Assembly (NCBI RefSeq): GCF_030149515.1
Contig: NZ_JASBRI010000029.1
Span: 1-64,000, forward strand
Direction: 5' to 3'
Length of the DNA: 64,000 bases
Source of the DNA: Maricaulis sp.
Lineage (GTDB): Bacteria > Pseudomonadota > Alphaproteobacteria > Caulobacterales > Maricaulaceae
Every line of letters starts with the position of its first letter. The stretch's first letter is position 1. Under the pieces are notes generated by a model that was not told the origin of the DNA, searched no databases, and worked only from the letters and a program-made list of their open reading frames with translations. The translations under genes and the position numbers were made by a program. This document shows positions 16,676 through 25,091 of the stretch, piece after piece.

Positions 16676-17119
16676 ATGAGCGAGAGCGAAAGCCAAACCG
16701 TCGTTTGCCGGCATGGCGACATATGGATTGCGGCCCAGCCCAGCGAGGCCGATCTGGACCAGTGGGCCGCGGACGGCGTCAAGATGATCGTCAATTCGCG
16801 CACGCCGGGAGAGACGTCGGGCCTGTCCTTCTACCTGCCGGAAGCCGTCGAGACGCGTGGCATGCGCTATGTCGAACTGCCGATCGGCGGCACTTACGGG
16901 GCCAGCGCCGTGCTCACCGCCACGCTCGGGGACCTGCTCGCCGAAGCGGACGGACCGGTGGTCATGCATTGCCGCACCGGCGGCCGTTCAGCGCATCTTT
17001 ATGCCGCCCATCTCGTCGATACCGGCCAGGACGGCGAGGACCCGTTCGACACGATGAACTGGCCCGGACCGCGCGACATGAACATGGTGCGTGCCCTCGT
17101 CCCGGTGCGCGGCGCATAG
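16676..17119 (+). CDS. DUF442/TIGR01244-type protein phosphatase-like protein
   Basis: Protein of 147 residues with a dual-specificity-phosphatase-like fold. The signature is VMHCRTGGRSAHL (Cys near residue 102), corresponding to the CRSGTRS loop of the DUF442/BLH family, preceded by the N-terminal AAQPSEADLDQWAADGVK. A catalytic cysteine and loop arginine are present, so phosphatase or rhodanese-like chemistry is plausible; the substrate is unknown. The start ATG at 16676 follows a GAGAAGGA ribosome site. It lies directly after the ELM1-family gene and 106 bp before trxB. Confidence 0.75.
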   Translation: MSESESQTVVCRHGDIWIAAQPSEADLDQWAADGVKMIVNSRTPGETSGLSFYLPEAVETRGMRYVELPIGGTYGASAVLTATLGDLLAEADGPVVMHCRTGGRSAHLYAAHLVDTGQDGEDPFDTMNWPGPRDMNMVRALVPVRGA

Positions 17120-17225
17120 CCGGAATGCTGACATCGGGCATGCATCGCGCTGCGAACGCCCTATATAAGTCGTCCGATCCAGACCCGGGGCCCCGCGCCC
17201 GTCACCAGACTTCCCGAGGTTTCCC

Positions 17226-18170
17226 ATGTCCGAGACGCGTCATTCGCGCCTGATCATCATCGGTTCCGGCGCCGCCGGCTATACCGCCGCCATCTACGCT
17301 GCGCGCGCCATGCTGGAACCGGTGCTGATTGCCGGCCTGCAGCCGGGCGGCCAGCTGACCATCACTACCGATGTCGAGAATTATCCCGGCTTCGCCGACG
17401 TCATCCAGGGCCCATGGCTGATGGAGCAGATGCGCGAACAGGCCGAGAAGGTGGGTACGGAAATGATCTCCGACATTATCGTCGAGGCGGACCTGTCCCG
17501 GCGCCCCTTCGTGCTGAAGGGCGACAGCGGCACCACCTACACGGCCGACAGCGTCGTCATCGCCACCGGCGCCCAGGCCAAATGGCTGGGCCTGGAGAGC
17601 GAGCAGAAATTCCAGGGCTTCGGCGTCTCCGCCTGTGCCACCTGTGACGGCTTCTTCTATCGGGGCAAGGATGTCGTGGTTGTCGGCGGCGGCAATACGG
17701 CCGTCGAGGAAGCGCTCTTCCTGACCAATTTCGCCTCCAAGGTAACCCTGGTGCACCGCCGCGACAGCCTGCGCGCGGAAAAGGTGATGCAGGACCGCCT
17801 GTTCAAACATCCCAAGATCGAAGTGGTCTGGGACAGCGTCGTCGAGGAGGTTCTCGGCGACACCGATCCGCCCGGGGTCACGGCGGTGCGCGTGAAGAAC
17901 GTCAAGACCGGCGAGACCACCGACATTTCGGCCCACGGTTTTTTTGTCGCCATCGGCCACGCCCCGGCAACGGAACTCTTCATCGACCAGCTGGAAACCA
18001 AGGAAGGCGGCTATCTCATCGTCGAGCCCGGCACGCCGAAAACCTCGATCCCCGGTGTTTTCGCCGCCGGCGACGTCACCGACGACGTCTACCGCCAGGC
18101 CGTGACCGCGGCCGGAATGGGCTGTATGGCTGCGCTGGAAGCGGAGCGTTTTCTGGCGGCGCAGGAATAG
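17226..18170 (+). CDS. trxB: Thioredoxin-disulfide reductase
   Basis: NADPH-dependent flavoenzyme that reduces thioredoxin. It has 314 residues. The FAD site is IIIGSGAAGYTAAIYAAR near residue 10, the redox-active CATC is at 137-140, the NADPH site is VVVGGGNTAVEEA just after residue 150, and the second FAD contact is GVFAAGDVTDDVYRQAVTAA. A good ribosome site (GAGG, 17216-17219) precedes the ATG. A TATATA box at 17162-17167 may belong to its promoter, but I find no -35 at the right distance. A CCCGGG-based hairpin follows the stop codon. Confidence 0.95.
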   Translation: MSETRHSRLIIIGSGAAGYTAAIYAARAMLEPVLIAGLQPGGQLTITTDVENYPGFADVIQGPWLMEQMREQAEKVGTEMISDIIVEADLSRRPFVLKGDSGTTYTADSVVIATGAQAKWLGLESEQKFQGFGVSACATCDGFFYRGKDVVVVGGGNTAVEEALFLTNFASKVTLVHRRDSLRAEKVMQDRLFKHPKIEVVWDSVVEEVLGDTDPPGVTAVRVKNVKTGETTDISAHGFFVAIGHAPATELFIDQLETKEGGYLIVEPGTPKTSIPGVFAAGDVTDDVYRQAVTAAGMGCMAALEAERFLAAQE

Positions 18171-21721: not shown

Positions 21722-22615
21722 ATGGACTGGGACAAGCTGAAGACGTTTCATGCCGCGGCCCAGGCCGGCTCGCTGACCAAGGCCGCCGACATGCTGGGCT
21801 TGTCGCAGTCGGCCGTCAGCCGGCAGATCGCCGCGCTGGAAGACGATCTGGGCGTCACGCTCTTCCACCGTCATGCGCGCGGCCTGATCCCGACTGAGCC
21901 GGGCAATCTTCTCTACGAGGCAGCCCACGAAATCCACGGCAAGGTGGCCGTCGCCGAGGCACGCGTCCAGGATGCCCGCGACGAACCCTCCGGGGAACTG
22001 AAGGTCACTGCCCCCACGGCCCTGGGCGCCATCTGGCTGGCCCGCCGCCTGGAAGCGTTCCACGAACAATATCCCGGCATCCGCATTCGCCTGATGCTGG
22101 ACGATCACGAGCTGGATCTGGCCGGTCTCGAGGCCGAGGTCGGCATCCGCCCCTGGCCCTCGACCCAGAACGATCTGGTCCAGCGCAAGCTGATGAGCGT
22201 GCGACAGCACCTCTATGCCAGCCATTCCTATGTCGAACGCCGCGGCGCGCCGGTCTCGGCCGAGGATCTCGACAATCACCCGATCATCCATTACGGCCCG
22301 CCGCAAATGGCACCCATTCCGGGGCTGGACTGGGCCGCCAAGGTCGGGCGCCCCGACGGCGAACCGCCGCGACCTGCCGTGATCGAGGTGAACACGATCT
22401 ATGGCGTGATGAAGGCCGTCGAGGCGGGCATGGGCATCGCCGCCCTGCCCGACTATGTGGCGCGGGAGAACGCCAATCTGGTGGAGGTCCTGCCCGAGGT
22501 CGAGGGCCCCGATTTCGACGTCTATTTCGTCTATCCCAGCGAGCTGCGCGGGTCGCGCCGCATTGTCGCCTTCCGGGATTTCCTTATCGAGCAGGCTCGG
22601 CTCTGGCAGAGCTGA
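21722..22615 (+). CDS. LysR-family transcriptional regulator
   Basis: Regulator of 297 residues from ATG 21722; a start 57 bases upstream would add a non-family tail. The N-terminal winged HTH is textbook LysR (FHAAAQAGSLTKAADMLGLS, QSAVSRQIAALEDDLGVTLF), followed by a periplasmic-binding-protein-like effector domain (SGELKVTAPTALGAIWLARR). Its target is unknown. From memory, similar LysR genes sit next to trxB in other alphaproteobacteria; here they are separated by the DUF547/TetR/reductase block. A GC hairpin at 22637 follows the stop. Confidence 0.9.
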   Translation: MDWDKLKTFHAAAQAGSLTKAADMLGLSQSAVSRQIAALEDDLGVTLFHRHARGLIPTEPGNLLYEAAHEIHGKVAVAEARVQDARDEPSGELKVTAPTALGAIWLARRLEAFHEQYPGIRIRLMLDDHELDLAGLEAEVGIRPWPSTQNDLVQRKLMSVRQHLYASHSYVERRGAPVSAEDLDNHPIIHYGPPQMAPIPGLDWAAKVGRPDGEPPRPAVIEVNTIYGVMKAVEAGMGIAALPDYVARENANLVEVLPEVEGPDFDVYFVYPSELRGSRRIVAFRDFLIEQARLWQS

Positions 22616-22636
22616 TTCCGATCGTCACCCGGCTCG

Positions 22637-22656
22637 CCGCCATCCGGTGATGGCGG
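22637..22656 (+). terminator. Hairpin after the lysR gene
   Basis: Perfect 8-bp stem CCGCCATC/GATGGCGG with a CGGT loop, 21 bases after the lysR stop; followed by AAATATT rather than a T-run, so its role as terminator is tentative. Confidence 0.35.
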
Positions 22657-22668
22657 AAATATTGCATG

Positions 22669-22697
22669 GCAAAAATGTGGACCGCCCGCATTTTTGC
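22669..22697. repeat. Inverted repeat GCAAAAATG/CATTTTTGC
   Basis: Perfect 9-bp arms 11 bases apart, each flanked by CATG-like bases. It lies about 50 bp upstream of the putative small-RNA promoter and could be a regulator site. No protein can be assigned. Confidence 0.3.
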
Positions 22698-22754
22698 ATG
22701 TCCGACATGATGGATCGGCTCTGGTCGGCCCTTCGCAAATGCATCATATACACG

Positions 22755-22947
22755 CCCGACGCGGCGGCGACGTCGCGCCTCAGATCTCCCCATTCTGAGT
22801 TTGCATACCCGTCTCCTCCCCATCAGGTATGCACATCGCGCCGGGTCCCCTCTCCTCCCCTTAAGGACCCGGCGCCATTTCTTCGGGCTACCCCGCCCGC
22901 AAGCGAGTAACACTGCCCCGGTCCTCCTGGACCGGGGCTTTTCTTTG
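22755..22947 (+). ncRNA. Predicted cuckoo/alpha-r14-type anti-Shine-Dalgarno small RNA
   Basis: A stretch of about 190 bases with no credible reading frame folds into serial hairpins that present CU-rich loops. Hairpin 1: CTCAGA/TCTGAG (22779-22799) with loop TCTCCCCAT. Hairpin 2: TGCATACC/GGTATGCA (22802-22833) with loop CGTCTCCTCCCCATCA. Hairpin 3: an 11-bp perfect stem GCGCCGGGTCC/GGACCCGGCGC (22838-22875) with loop CCTCTCCTCCCCTTAA. It ends in a strong terminator (22915-22947). Loops with (C)CUCCUCCC are the hallmark of cuckoo RNAs (CcsR of Rhodobacter, NfeR1/alpha-r14 of rhizobia), which pair with Shine-Dalgarno sequences. TATACA at 22747-22752 is a possible -10; I found no clear -35, so the 5' end is approximate. 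Confidence 0.7.
22915..22947 (+). terminator. Terminator of the predicted small RNA
   Basis: A perfect 10-bp stem GCCCCGGTCC/GGACCGGGGC with a TCCT loop followed by TTTTCTTTG. No protein gene ends upstream within 290 bases, so it must end a non-coding transcript. The T-run is on the plus strand only, which fixes the RNA's direction. Confidence 0.9.
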
Positions 22948-22983
22948 CCTGTCCGCCACGACTTGCCAGGGCACCACATCGTC

Positions 22984-23020
22984 CATATATCCATTTTTCT
23001 GGAATATTGGATATTATATG
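22984..23020. promoter_or_regulatory. Candidate ArsR operator over the ATP-grasp-like gene start
   Basis: CATATATCCA (22984-22993) and TGGATATTATATG (23008-23020) form an imperfect AT-rich dyad, containing ATATCC/GGATAT, that overlaps the ATG at 23018. The placement and AT-rich arms suit an ArsR/SmtB-type repressor, and an ArsR gene is the second gene of this unit. Confidence 0.4.
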
Positions 23021-24151
23021 CTGCACGATCATCTCAATGCGCAGTGCCAATGCACGCCCACCGGCCCCGGCCTGGCGCTCACGGCGCCACAGGGGGTTTT
23101 CCTGCCGCGCCGGACCCAAGCCGGCCTTGTCGAGGCGACGCGGGCCGTCGGCCGGACGCTGAGACGCCTGCGGCCGCGCAGCAGCGCTGTCGACAATGCG
23201 GGCCTCTTCAACAGTTTCGACTATCACATCACGCCCGACGGGCCGAAGCTGATCGAAATCAACGTGAATGCGGGCGGCCTCTTCCTGCAGCCCGCCATTG
23301 CCGCTTCGGTCGCATCCGCCCCGGCGGGCTGTCTGACCCGGATCGGCGCAACACACCCCGCCGATCCGGTCGAGACCATTCTCAAGGCCTGGTCCCGCCA
23401 TGCCGGATCCACGCCACTCAGGCGGGTCGCGATCCTGGACGAGGATCCTGAAACACAACCGCTCCATTGCGAGATGCAGGCCGCGCGCCACGCCCTCGGC
23501 CGCGCCGGGATCGCCTGCGACATCCTCGATATAGGGCAGTTGGCGTTCGACGGCTGCGGGCTTCGCGGACCCTCCGGGCCCGTCGACATGGTCTACAACC
23601 GCTGGACCGATTTCACCTGGGCAACGCCGCAAAGCCGGACGCTGCGCCATGCCCATGAAACCGGCGCCGCATTCGTGGCACCCAATCCGCAGGTATGGCA
23701 GGCCTATGCCGACAAGGCCCTGCTCGTACAGCTGGCGGCCGATCCCGATCGGCCGGCCGCGATACTCGATGCCGAAGCCGTCACGCATGCACGCGCCGAT
23801 GCGCTCTGGACCGGCCGCAAATCGCTGGTCTTCAAACCCCTTCGCGGCTTCGCTTCGCGCGGCGTCTATCGGGGCGACAAGCTGAGCCGGCGCAAATGGC
23901 AGGACATCCTGGACGGCGGTTATCTGGCCCAGGCCCTCGCCCCTCCCGGCCAGCGCATCCTGACCACCGCCGCCGGAGCACGCGCCTTCAAGACCGATAT
24001 CCGCGTCTGGACGCATGGCGACACACCGCTTTATATGGCCGCACGCCTGTTTTCCGGGCAGGTCACGGGATTGAGCGGCGAGGCGGAGGGCTTCGCGCCC
24101 ATCCTGTGGGTCGAAGACGAAAAGGGCGGACCGGATGCCTGCCATTGCTGA
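23018..24151 (+). CDS. ATP-grasp-like enzyme of unknown function
   Basis: Protein of 377 residues, not firmly identified. FDYHITPDGPKLIEINVNAGG (near residue 70, here split as FDYHITPDG and KLIEINVNAGG) looks like the Mg-ATP end motif of ATP-grasp enzymes. Later come VDMVYNRWTDFTW, a lysine segment LVFKPLRGFASRGVYRGDKLS near residue 275, and a closing AARLFSGQVTGLSG with GFAPILW. The acidic EIN motif precedes the FKP motif, so the order is unlike ordinary ATP-grasp chains. I recall an uncharacterised family with this pattern. It overlaps arsR by 17 bases and starts under an AT-rich dyad, so it is probably controlled by a metal(loid)-responsive repressor. Other ligase substrates remain possible. 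Confidence 0.55.
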   Translation: MLHDHLNAQCQCTPTGPGLALTAPQGVFLPRRTQAGLVEATRAVGRTLRRLRPRSSAVDNAGLFNSFDYHITPDGPKLIEINVNAGGLFLQPAIAASVASAPAGCLTRIGATHPADPVETILKAWSRHAGSTPLRRVAILDEDPETQPLHCEMQAARHALGRAGIACDILDIGQLAFDGCGLRGPSGPVDMVYNRWTDFTWATPQSRTLRHAHETGAAFVAPNPQVWQAYADKALLVQLAADPDRPAAILDAEAVTHARADALWTGRKSLVFKPLRGFASRGVYRGDKLSRRKWQDILDGGYLAQALAPPGQRILTTAAGARAFKTDIRVWTHGDTPLYMAARLFSGQVTGLSGEAEGFAPILWVEDEKGGPDACHC

Positions 24152-24446
24152 CGCCGATACCGATCTCGACCGTCTGGCCGGACAGCTTGCCGCCCTGGGA
24201 CACGGAACACGTCTGCGCATTTATCGCGTTCTCCTGCGGGCCGGGCCGGAGGGCCTCCCCGTCGGCCGGGTGCAGGCACAGCTGAGCATGGCGCAGTCCA
24301 CACTCTCCTTTCATCTGCGCAAACTGGTCGATGTCGGCCTGGTGCGGCAGACGCGCGACGGACGGGTGCTGAACTGCTGCTGCGACATGGCGGCCATGGG
24401 GGGGATTCTTGCCTTCCTCCAGGAAGAGTGCTGCCGCAACGCCTAG
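24135..24446 (+). CDS. ArsR-family metal/metalloid-responsive repressor
   Basis: Winged-helix repressor of 103 residues. The HTH reads LAALGHGTRLRIYRVLLRAG, then GRVQAQLSMAQSTLSFHLRK, with the wing at VDVGLVRQTRDGRVLN. It carries a C-terminal cysteine cluster (NCCCDM at about 84-89 and EECCRNA at the end), a likely As(III) or soft-metal site, although the classic CVC helix motif is absent. It overlaps the ATP-grasp-like gene by 17 bases and is the last gene before a bidirectional terminator. Autoregulation through the dyad at 22984 is inferred. Confidence 0.85.
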   Translation: MPAIADADTDLDRLAGQLAALGHGTRLRIYRVLLRAGPEGLPVGRVQAQLSMAQSTLSFHLRKLVDVGLVRQTRDGRVLNCCCDMAAMGGILAFLQEECCRNA

Positions 24447-24504: not shown

Positions 24505-24972
24505 CTATCCGATCGTCGAGCGCAGCATCCAGGCGGATTTCTCGTGCTCCGTGAGGCGCGGGGTCAGCACGTCGGCCGTGGCCTCGTCGCCATGTTCGTC
24601 AGCAAGTTCCAGCGCCTTGCGGATCGTGGCGACCACGGTTTCATGGCCCGTCAGCAGATCCTTCAGCATGGCATTGGCCTCGGTGGCATCGCCGCCGGAC
24701 TTGATAGAGGCCGCGCCCTCCATCTCGGCGTAGGAGCGCGGCGCGACCACGTCGAGGGCACGGATACGCTCGGCGATCACGTCGGTTGCAGCCCAGAGTT
24801 CGTTGTACTGGGTCTCGAACAGGGCGTGCAGATCGTGAAAGCGCGGTCCGGTGACATTCCAGTGATAGACGTGCGTCTTGAAATAGAGCGCGTAGGTGTC
24901 CGCCAGGACAGCCGTGACGGCCTTCGCCATGGTCTCGCGCTGCGTGTCCGACAGACCCATATTGATGCTCAT
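24505..24972 (-). CDS. dps: Dps-family ferritin-like DNA-protection protein
   Basis: Mini-ferritin of 155 residues that oxidises and stores iron and protects DNA during oxidative stress. The start at 24972 is chosen because GGAG lies 5-8 bases upstream; upstream starts have none. The inter-subunit ferroxidase ligands are recognisable in YFKTHVYHWNVTGPRFHDLH (His) and LFETQYNELWAATDVIAERI (Glu). The gene ends at a shared terminator with arsR. I could not identify a Fur or OxyR site upstream. Confidence 0.92.
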   Translation of the reverse strand: MSINMGLSDTQRETMAKAVTAVLADTYALYFKTHVYHWNVTGPRFHDLHALFETQYNELWAATDVIAERIRALDVVAPRSYAEMEGAASIKSGGDATEANAMLKDLLTGHETVVATIRKALELADEHGDEATADVLTPRLTEHEKSAWMLRSTIG

Positions 24973-25091
24973 GCTTGTCTCCATTCGTAGTTCGCGTGCG
25001 GGCAGGCCCGCGGTCTCGACCCCAATATGGGCCGGGCAATTCCGCACTTCCAATCAGGAATTACGAAGGCCGGTATAGACTGGATCTATGA

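Follow-up and report, generated by a model that had tools for sequence, protein, structure and literature searches.

A conserved predicted small RNA with anti-Shine-Dalgarno loops beside an apparent LsrB/VtlR ortholog in Maricaulis

The closest described counterparts of the RNA reported here come from rhizobia and Rhodobacter. NfeR1 is described as folding into three hairpins, each with the word CCUCCUCCC; its redundant loops act on mRNA ribosome-binding sites, and LsrB is reported to activate it via an upstream LysR-type box (PMC10746234). In Agrobacterium tumefaciens, AbcR1 lies downstream of lsrB/vtlR and is described as controlled by VtlR (PMC7486931); its aSD1 (anti-Shine-Dalgarno) word is given as CUCCUCCC, the LsrB box of its promoter PabcR1 as lying at -61 to -49, and the LsrB consensus as GCAT-N3-TG-N3-T (PMC8844928). 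For S. meliloti, PMC7486931 reports AbcR to be outside LsrB control, against PMC8844928. Two sources also describe trxB as adjoining lsrB in Rhizobiales (PMC7486931, PMC11975290), and the second of these reports that the A. tumefaciens trxB-lsrB operon is autoregulated by LsrB. For the CcsR RNAs, PMC10253847 describes an RpoHI/RpoHII promoter, a transcript shared with a DUF1127 gene, and cutting by RNase E. Our search of the open-access literature found no paper on the present RNA in Maricaulis.

In the window, the 64,000-nucleotide stretch of Maricaulis sp. DNA analyzed here, the interval 22757-22945 reads as a real-looking, free-standing small-RNA gene with aSD loops (Table 1). The start was assumed to lie 7 nt past the -10 element, and the end was placed in the T tract. 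A 193-nt stretch covering it folds at -91.0 kcal/mol (z -8.1), with none of 200 dinucleotide shuffles as stable, and a scan found three overlapping terminator-like sites in the RNA stretch vs 0.2 in shuffles. The initial annotation had described three loop hairpins with a repeated loop word, stems of 8 and 11 bp and a terminator, and the fold and the terminator scan returned all of these in the same places; it was silent on the 5' hairpin and on a weaker tail hairpin near 22881-22903. Hairpin 1 is weak or absent in part of Maricaulis according to the locus alignment, while the outer stem of hairpin 3, GCGCCGG, is invariant in the aligned Maricaulis loci. Four long ORFs overlap the RNA stretch; a Pfam scan of three of them gave zero matches (the fourth is 22823-24220, minus strand), and indels between aligned relatives are not multiples of three across the stretch, which agrees with the view in that annotation that the unit holds no protein gene.

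Table 1. Features of the small-RNA locus, with positions in the window and the basis of each assignment
Feature	Position	Strand	Basis or remark
GCAT box + TATATA before trxB, possible second LsrB site	17114..17167	+	genome scan
trxB, thioredoxin reductase	17226..18170	+	TIGR01292, 412.5 bits (cut-off 343.45)
LysR-type regulator, apparent LsrB/VtlR ortholog	21722..22615	+	PDB 9hh1 match; no cysteine
Putative LsrB box GCATGTCCGACAT	22696..22708	+	6/7 fixed bases of GCAT-N3-TG-N3-T
Possible -35 element CTGGTC (CTTCTG-like in relatives)	22721..22726	+	by eye; spacer 18
Putative -10 element CATATA	22745..22750	+	alignment of 18 loci
Predicted small RNA, ~189 nt	22757..22945	+	fold z -8.1; model R1 91.6 bits; both ends predicted
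5' hairpin	22760..22777	+	fold; helix 1, both-side changes in 2/6 pairs
Hairpin 1, 6 bp, loop TCTCCCCAT	22779..22799	+	fold, helix 2 of alignment
Hairpin 2, 8 bp, 16-nt aSD loop, TCTCCTCCCC at 22812-22821	22802..22833	+	fold, helix 3
Hairpin 3, 11 bp, 16-nt aSD loop, TCTCCTCCCC at 22851-22860	22838..22875	+	fold, helix 4
Intrinsic terminator	22915..22945	+	stem 22915-22938, 10 pairs (9 G-C), then TTTTCTTT
377-aa ORF	23018-24148		downstream neighbor of RNA
ArsR-type gene	24135-24446		after 377-aa ORF
Ferritin-like Dps-type gene	24505-24978	minus

Comparison with relatives, including M. parjimensis, M. alexandrii, M. maris and M. salignorans, gave strong evidence for a conserved aSD small-RNA gene. 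A plain MAFFT alignment had hairpin 2 out of register, and therefore a covariance model, R1, built from six well-aligned relatives was used instead. Of 19 Maricaulis genomes, 18 gave a match to model R1, the window's own with 91.6 bits (E 3.4e-17); the one without a match is 65% complete, and its contig stops 421 bases past the LysR gene. A broad model gave 25 matches, 20 of which were kept by a stricter E-value, with two minus-strand matches (L039 and L102) dropped before counting; the resulting 20 copies are those of the 18 Maricaulis genomes, a second tandem copy in one of these (G011) and one from another genus (G025). In this alignment 97.0% of 574 cells were paired, compared with 33-46% in slid controls, and both-side changes occurred in 16 of 31 pairs, values that none of 500 shuffles reached, although these figures overstate independence, since the copies are related to one another and were aligned by fitting to the structure. 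Hairpin 2 carried both-side changes in all eight of its pairs, and RNAalifold found kept double changes in 13 of 24 pairs of the 20-copy alignment; such pair counts are approximate because the alignment leans to its structure and the window row is off by one in hairpin 2. Conservation of stems and loops, which the initial annotation had proposed as a check on its claim, thus held up across the genus. The word CTCCTCCC is present in 17 of the 18 Maricaulis copies, twice in 13 of those, and is missing from the first G011 copy. The two tandem copies of that genome (L055:2517-2614 and 2782-2881) recall the tandem abcR1/abcR2.

The LsrB/VtlR-like LysR gene, which had been taken earlier as a mere neighbor, is the key to the locus. 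Its best match in the PDB was 9hh1 (280.9 bits; second chain 103.1), which PMC11975290 deposited as A. tumefaciens LsrB. When A. tumefaciens LsrB was the query in the window's own genome, the same gene scored 281.3 bits with 45% identity, and the next paralog 115.5; on these one-way search results it looks like the LsrB/VtlR ortholog. The same query at E 1e-60 hit 221 of 385 class genomes, in most of them once. PMC11975290 confines LsrB to Rhizobiales on a small tree of three LsrB and nine OxyR sequences, and PMC7486931 describes LsrB/VtlR as conserved in many Alphaproteobacteria; our sequence matches would favor a wide distribution in Alphaproteobacteria over one in Rhizobiales only.

The window LsrB contains no cysteine, nor do 14 of 16 orthologs from named Maricaulis, and the thiol switch of A. 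tumefaciens LsrB therefore cannot be its input; its input signal and the A. tumefaciens one would then differ, in mechanism at the least. The trxB gene sits 3.5 kb ahead of the LsrB gene in the window, a linkage also known from other Alphaproteobacteria, and lies within 8 kb upstream of LsrB in 17 of the 18 stretches examined from relatives. A box plus -10 pattern matched three times in the window's own genome, once before trxB, vs zero times in the reversed control, and the box before trxB is present in only part of the Maricaulis relatives.

Upstream of the RNA, the intergenic alignment of 18 Maricaulis loci contains one strongly conserved block, GCAT-N9. The window box departs from the published consensus by CG in place of TG, and the full consensus is matched in only 7 of the 18 loci. 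The -10 element reads CATATA in 15 loci, GATATA in one and CATAAG in two, while a scan with the sigma-70 consensus found no promoter at the window RNA. A script placed the start of the box 49 bases ahead of the -10 in 15 of the 18 loci; in the other three (G004, G008 and G014) it picked a nearer GCAT, and the box occupies the same alignment column. Given a start 7 bases past the -10, the predicted box lies at -61 to -49, the published location in PabcR1, and since the start site is assumed, the figure of -61 may be off by a base or two. Among 16 loci of other genera, 49 was among the box-to--10 distances matched in nine, and five gave no match.

Box and -10 together within 500 nt past the LysR gene were found in 8 of 16 named Maricaulis loci (shuffled mean 0.3), 9 of 14 loci of near genera (shuffled 0.5) and only 5 of 50 further relatives (L173-L222; shuffled 1.52), with zero antisense matches in all three sets, and in 8 of 29 class loci (shuffled 0.74), these being the 29 parsed from the 30 best-scoring LsrB loci and not a random draw. 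The box alone was weak in Maricaulis (sense 7/16, antisense 4, shuffled 1.0), which, like the low count in the further relatives, speaks against the proposed control. Overall, the case for LsrB control of the RNA is good but circumstantial.

The initial annotation had assigned the RNA to the cuckoo/CcsR and NfeR1 (alpha-r14) type. An NfeR1-like build with repeated aSD loops stands, but membership does not, as the covariance-model check it proposed gave 34.3 bits for ar14 (RF02344; E 2.9e-4) and 26.4 bits for CcsR1 (RF02791; E 7e-4), against curated cut-offs of 58.8 and 65.3. The exact 9-mer CCUCCUCCC (CCTCCTCCC) has zero occurrences in the window, where CTCCTCCC occurs twice, and none of the genomes of 61 relatives reached the ar14 cut-off. 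A search for ar15 (RF02345) gave no match up to E 10 in 22000-23600; at E 1e-6 it found none in 240 class genomes, and since the controls were silent too, this says nothing on distribution. On these tests the RNA falls outside ar14, ar15 and CcsR. Weak ar14 matches were also tried as evidence and set aside: 39 of 61 relatives matched at E 1, none over the cut-off, and the window's own genome was missed because of stricter filters. Many of these matches look by eye like gene ends with terminators, and at E 10 ar14 also matched in 9 of 14 control genomes. This tally is unreliable, and we therefore base the argument on model R1 of the genus together with synteny.

The strongest rival holds that the RNA is nevertheless a true cuckoo/ar14/CcsR member, stress-induced from an RpoH-type promoter, with the LysR gene an incidental neighbor. 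The top Rfam matches are indeed ar14 and CcsR1, and the C-rich loops are repeated, but both matches fall far under their cut-offs, common C-rich loops could have independent origins, the box keeps a fixed distance to the RNA, and the neighboring ORFs scanned with Pfam and NCBIfam include no DUF1127 gene, as the initial annotation had said; a text pattern found none beside the other ar14-like matches in 21 loci either. As for the ar14 trait of an LsrB-type box before a sigma-70-like promoter, the window box retains six of the seven fixed bases and its spacing to the -10 is constant, with the consensus promoter scan negative. We regard this rival as unlikely.

We consider it probable that the RNA acts in trans under LsrB control, occupies the spot that AbcR1 has in A. 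tumefaciens, and by means of its aSD loops keeps a set of mRNAs from being translated. In this model, the LsrB ortholog would bind the GCAT box, at roughly -61 to -49, to activate the promoter; the transcript would be about 189 nt long and stop at the terminator. Stable stems, a structure backed by the covariation, would keep two or three C-rich loops single-stranded, and any of these could stop translation by pairing with GGGGAGGA-type ribosome-binding sites, the loops being redundant as shown for NfeR1. We infer the loop pairing, the translation block and the switch-on by LsrB from what is reported for NfeR1 and AbcR1 (PMC10746234, PMC8844928), and by this analogy the RNA would work like those two.

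The blocked set may include uptake genes. The window's own genome has 31 GGGGAGGA leaders, vs five in the reversed control; 30 of the 31 were examined and led to 23 distinct ORFs with a length of 90 aa or more, ten of which were scanned with Pfam. Six of the 23 were of uptake type, namely three TonB plug proteins, one MFS protein, one SDF symporter and one DUF4212 protein, the last of which we take to be a symporter. This enrichment is not significant (6/23 vs 0/8 by eye in the AAGGAGGA control, p 0.30), and the stronger pairing energies of GGGGAGGA leaders follow from the leaders having been chosen that way. Homologs with the same leader were found in three other Maricaulis genomes for 7 of the 23 ORFs, at 53-92% identity, among the 30 of 44 matches examined. 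TonB receptors and symporters may accordingly be listed as candidate targets, as leads only. Several near-identical C-rich loops would also fit a sponge that mainly titrates another small RNA, a protein or free 30S subunits rather than acting on single mRNAs, and sponge RNAs are on record in Caulobacter (PMC12559287); the closest characterized RNAs, though, target mRNA ribosome-binding sites with redundant loops, and we give titration a small chance, slightly below that of family membership.

The arrangement of the locus bears on whether the RNA has a promoter of its own. In the window the RNA lies on the same strand as lysR, 140 nt past its end, which, with the negative sigma-70 scan, would suit an RNA that lacks a promoter of its own and is released from the 3' untranslated part of the lysR mRNA. 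In 13 Maricaulis genomes hairpin 2 starts no more than 410 nt past LysR, and in five (G001, G002, G005, G007 and G009) the distance is about 1.6 kb. In these five of the 18 genomes a gene on the opposite strand, chemotaxis-receptor-like by eye, intervenes between LysR and the RNA, but box, -10 and RNA still stay together, and processing from the lysR mRNA is thus very improbable.

On the other side, the surroundings are as annotated initially: after the LysR gene and the RNA follow the 377-aa ORF, with zero matches in Pfam at 0.001 and in NCBIfam at 1e-5, and then the ArsR-type gene. In many Maricaulis loci the slot downstream of the RNA is taken by a dps-like gene on the opposite strand, and in 22 of 80 named loci a text pattern picked out a dps-like frame downstream of LsrB. 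That the RNA is an attenuator or terminator region of the 377-aa gene, which it precedes in the window, or has no function, is the least credible of the rivals, as the downstream gene varies while the RNA is kept with covariation.

Beyond Maricaulis, Woodsholea and Oceanicaulis have a single hairpin nearly identical to hairpin 2 followed by a terminator, and a Glycocaulis hairpin resembles hairpin 2 by eye. C-rich hairpins were found past LysR in 9 of 16 Maricaulis loci, 7 of 14 of near genera, 4 of 50 further relatives and 6 of 29 class loci, with 0, 1, 0 and 0 antisense, respectively. In 15 of the 29 class loci (L223-L252) an RNA with CCTCCCTGT and a terminator follows LsrB, SorX/MmgR-like below the cut-off, with zero occurrences of CCTCCCTGT on the other strand or upstream of LsrB; in an Rfam scan of class loci, 6 of 11 matched SorX below the cut-off (best 44.1 vs 46.6 bits). 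Maricaulis also has a second conserved RNA-like locus (L129, G000:C19:105206-105309) with the C-rich loops TCCCCTCC and TCTCCTCCCCC and, ahead of them, a long block that is conserved too; it is common to 8 of 10 loci examined (L124, L126 and L128-L133). For L129 and L130 an Rfam scan at E 0.05 gave zero matches.

Tentatively, and with slightly more doubt than confidence, we suggest that LsrB/VtlR did not originate in Rhizobiales but is an ancient regulator of the Alphaproteobacteria, steadily accompanied by an aSD RNA next to it, and that the RNA has been exchanged or remodeled by lineage while the LsrB gene and the site near -61 were kept. Equally tentatively, in Rhizobiaceae the partner would be AbcR, in other orders a SorX/MmgR-like RNA, in Oceanicaulis and Woodsholea an RNA with a single hairpin, and in Maricaulis an ar14-like RNA with two or three. 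If so, aSD RNAs that Rfam splits into families would be parts of one regulatory position, and one regulator-RNA module would explain the recurrent C-rich aSD RNAs across Alphaproteobacteria and would be open to study in harmless marine bacteria outside host interaction. It would also question the claim of PMC11975290 that LsrB is found in Rhizobiales only, in agreement with the older PMC7486931, which describes VtlR as conserved widely across the class. From this reading follow three directly testable predictions, on the promoter site, the regulator and the target rule (GGGGAGGA leaders).

Compared with known systems, the Maricaulis RNA shares with NfeR1/ar14 of S. meliloti the three hairpins, C-rich aSD loops and variable stems, but its loops carry CUCCUCCC(C) instead of CCUCCUCCC, the hairpin 1 loop is shorter, the 3' tail is longer, the terminator is separate and the gene lies beside lsrB. 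With AbcR1/ar15 it has in common the place after lsrB/vtlR (one gene between in 5 of 18 genomes), the predicted box at -61 to -49 and the word CUCCUCCC, whereas the number and layout of loops differ and a second aSD of the UUCCCCUC type was not found in it. Like CcsR1-4/cuckoo of Rhodobacter sphaeroides it has repeated stem-loops and C-rich loops, but its promoter features are a putative LysR-type box and -10 rather than the RpoHI/RpoHII promoter of CcsR, and no DUF1127 gene was seen among the neighbors scanned. The SorX (RF02784) and suhB/MmgR (RF00519) types beside LsrB homologs differ from it in sequence and layout, and resemble it as C-rich RNAs with a terminator just past LsrB.
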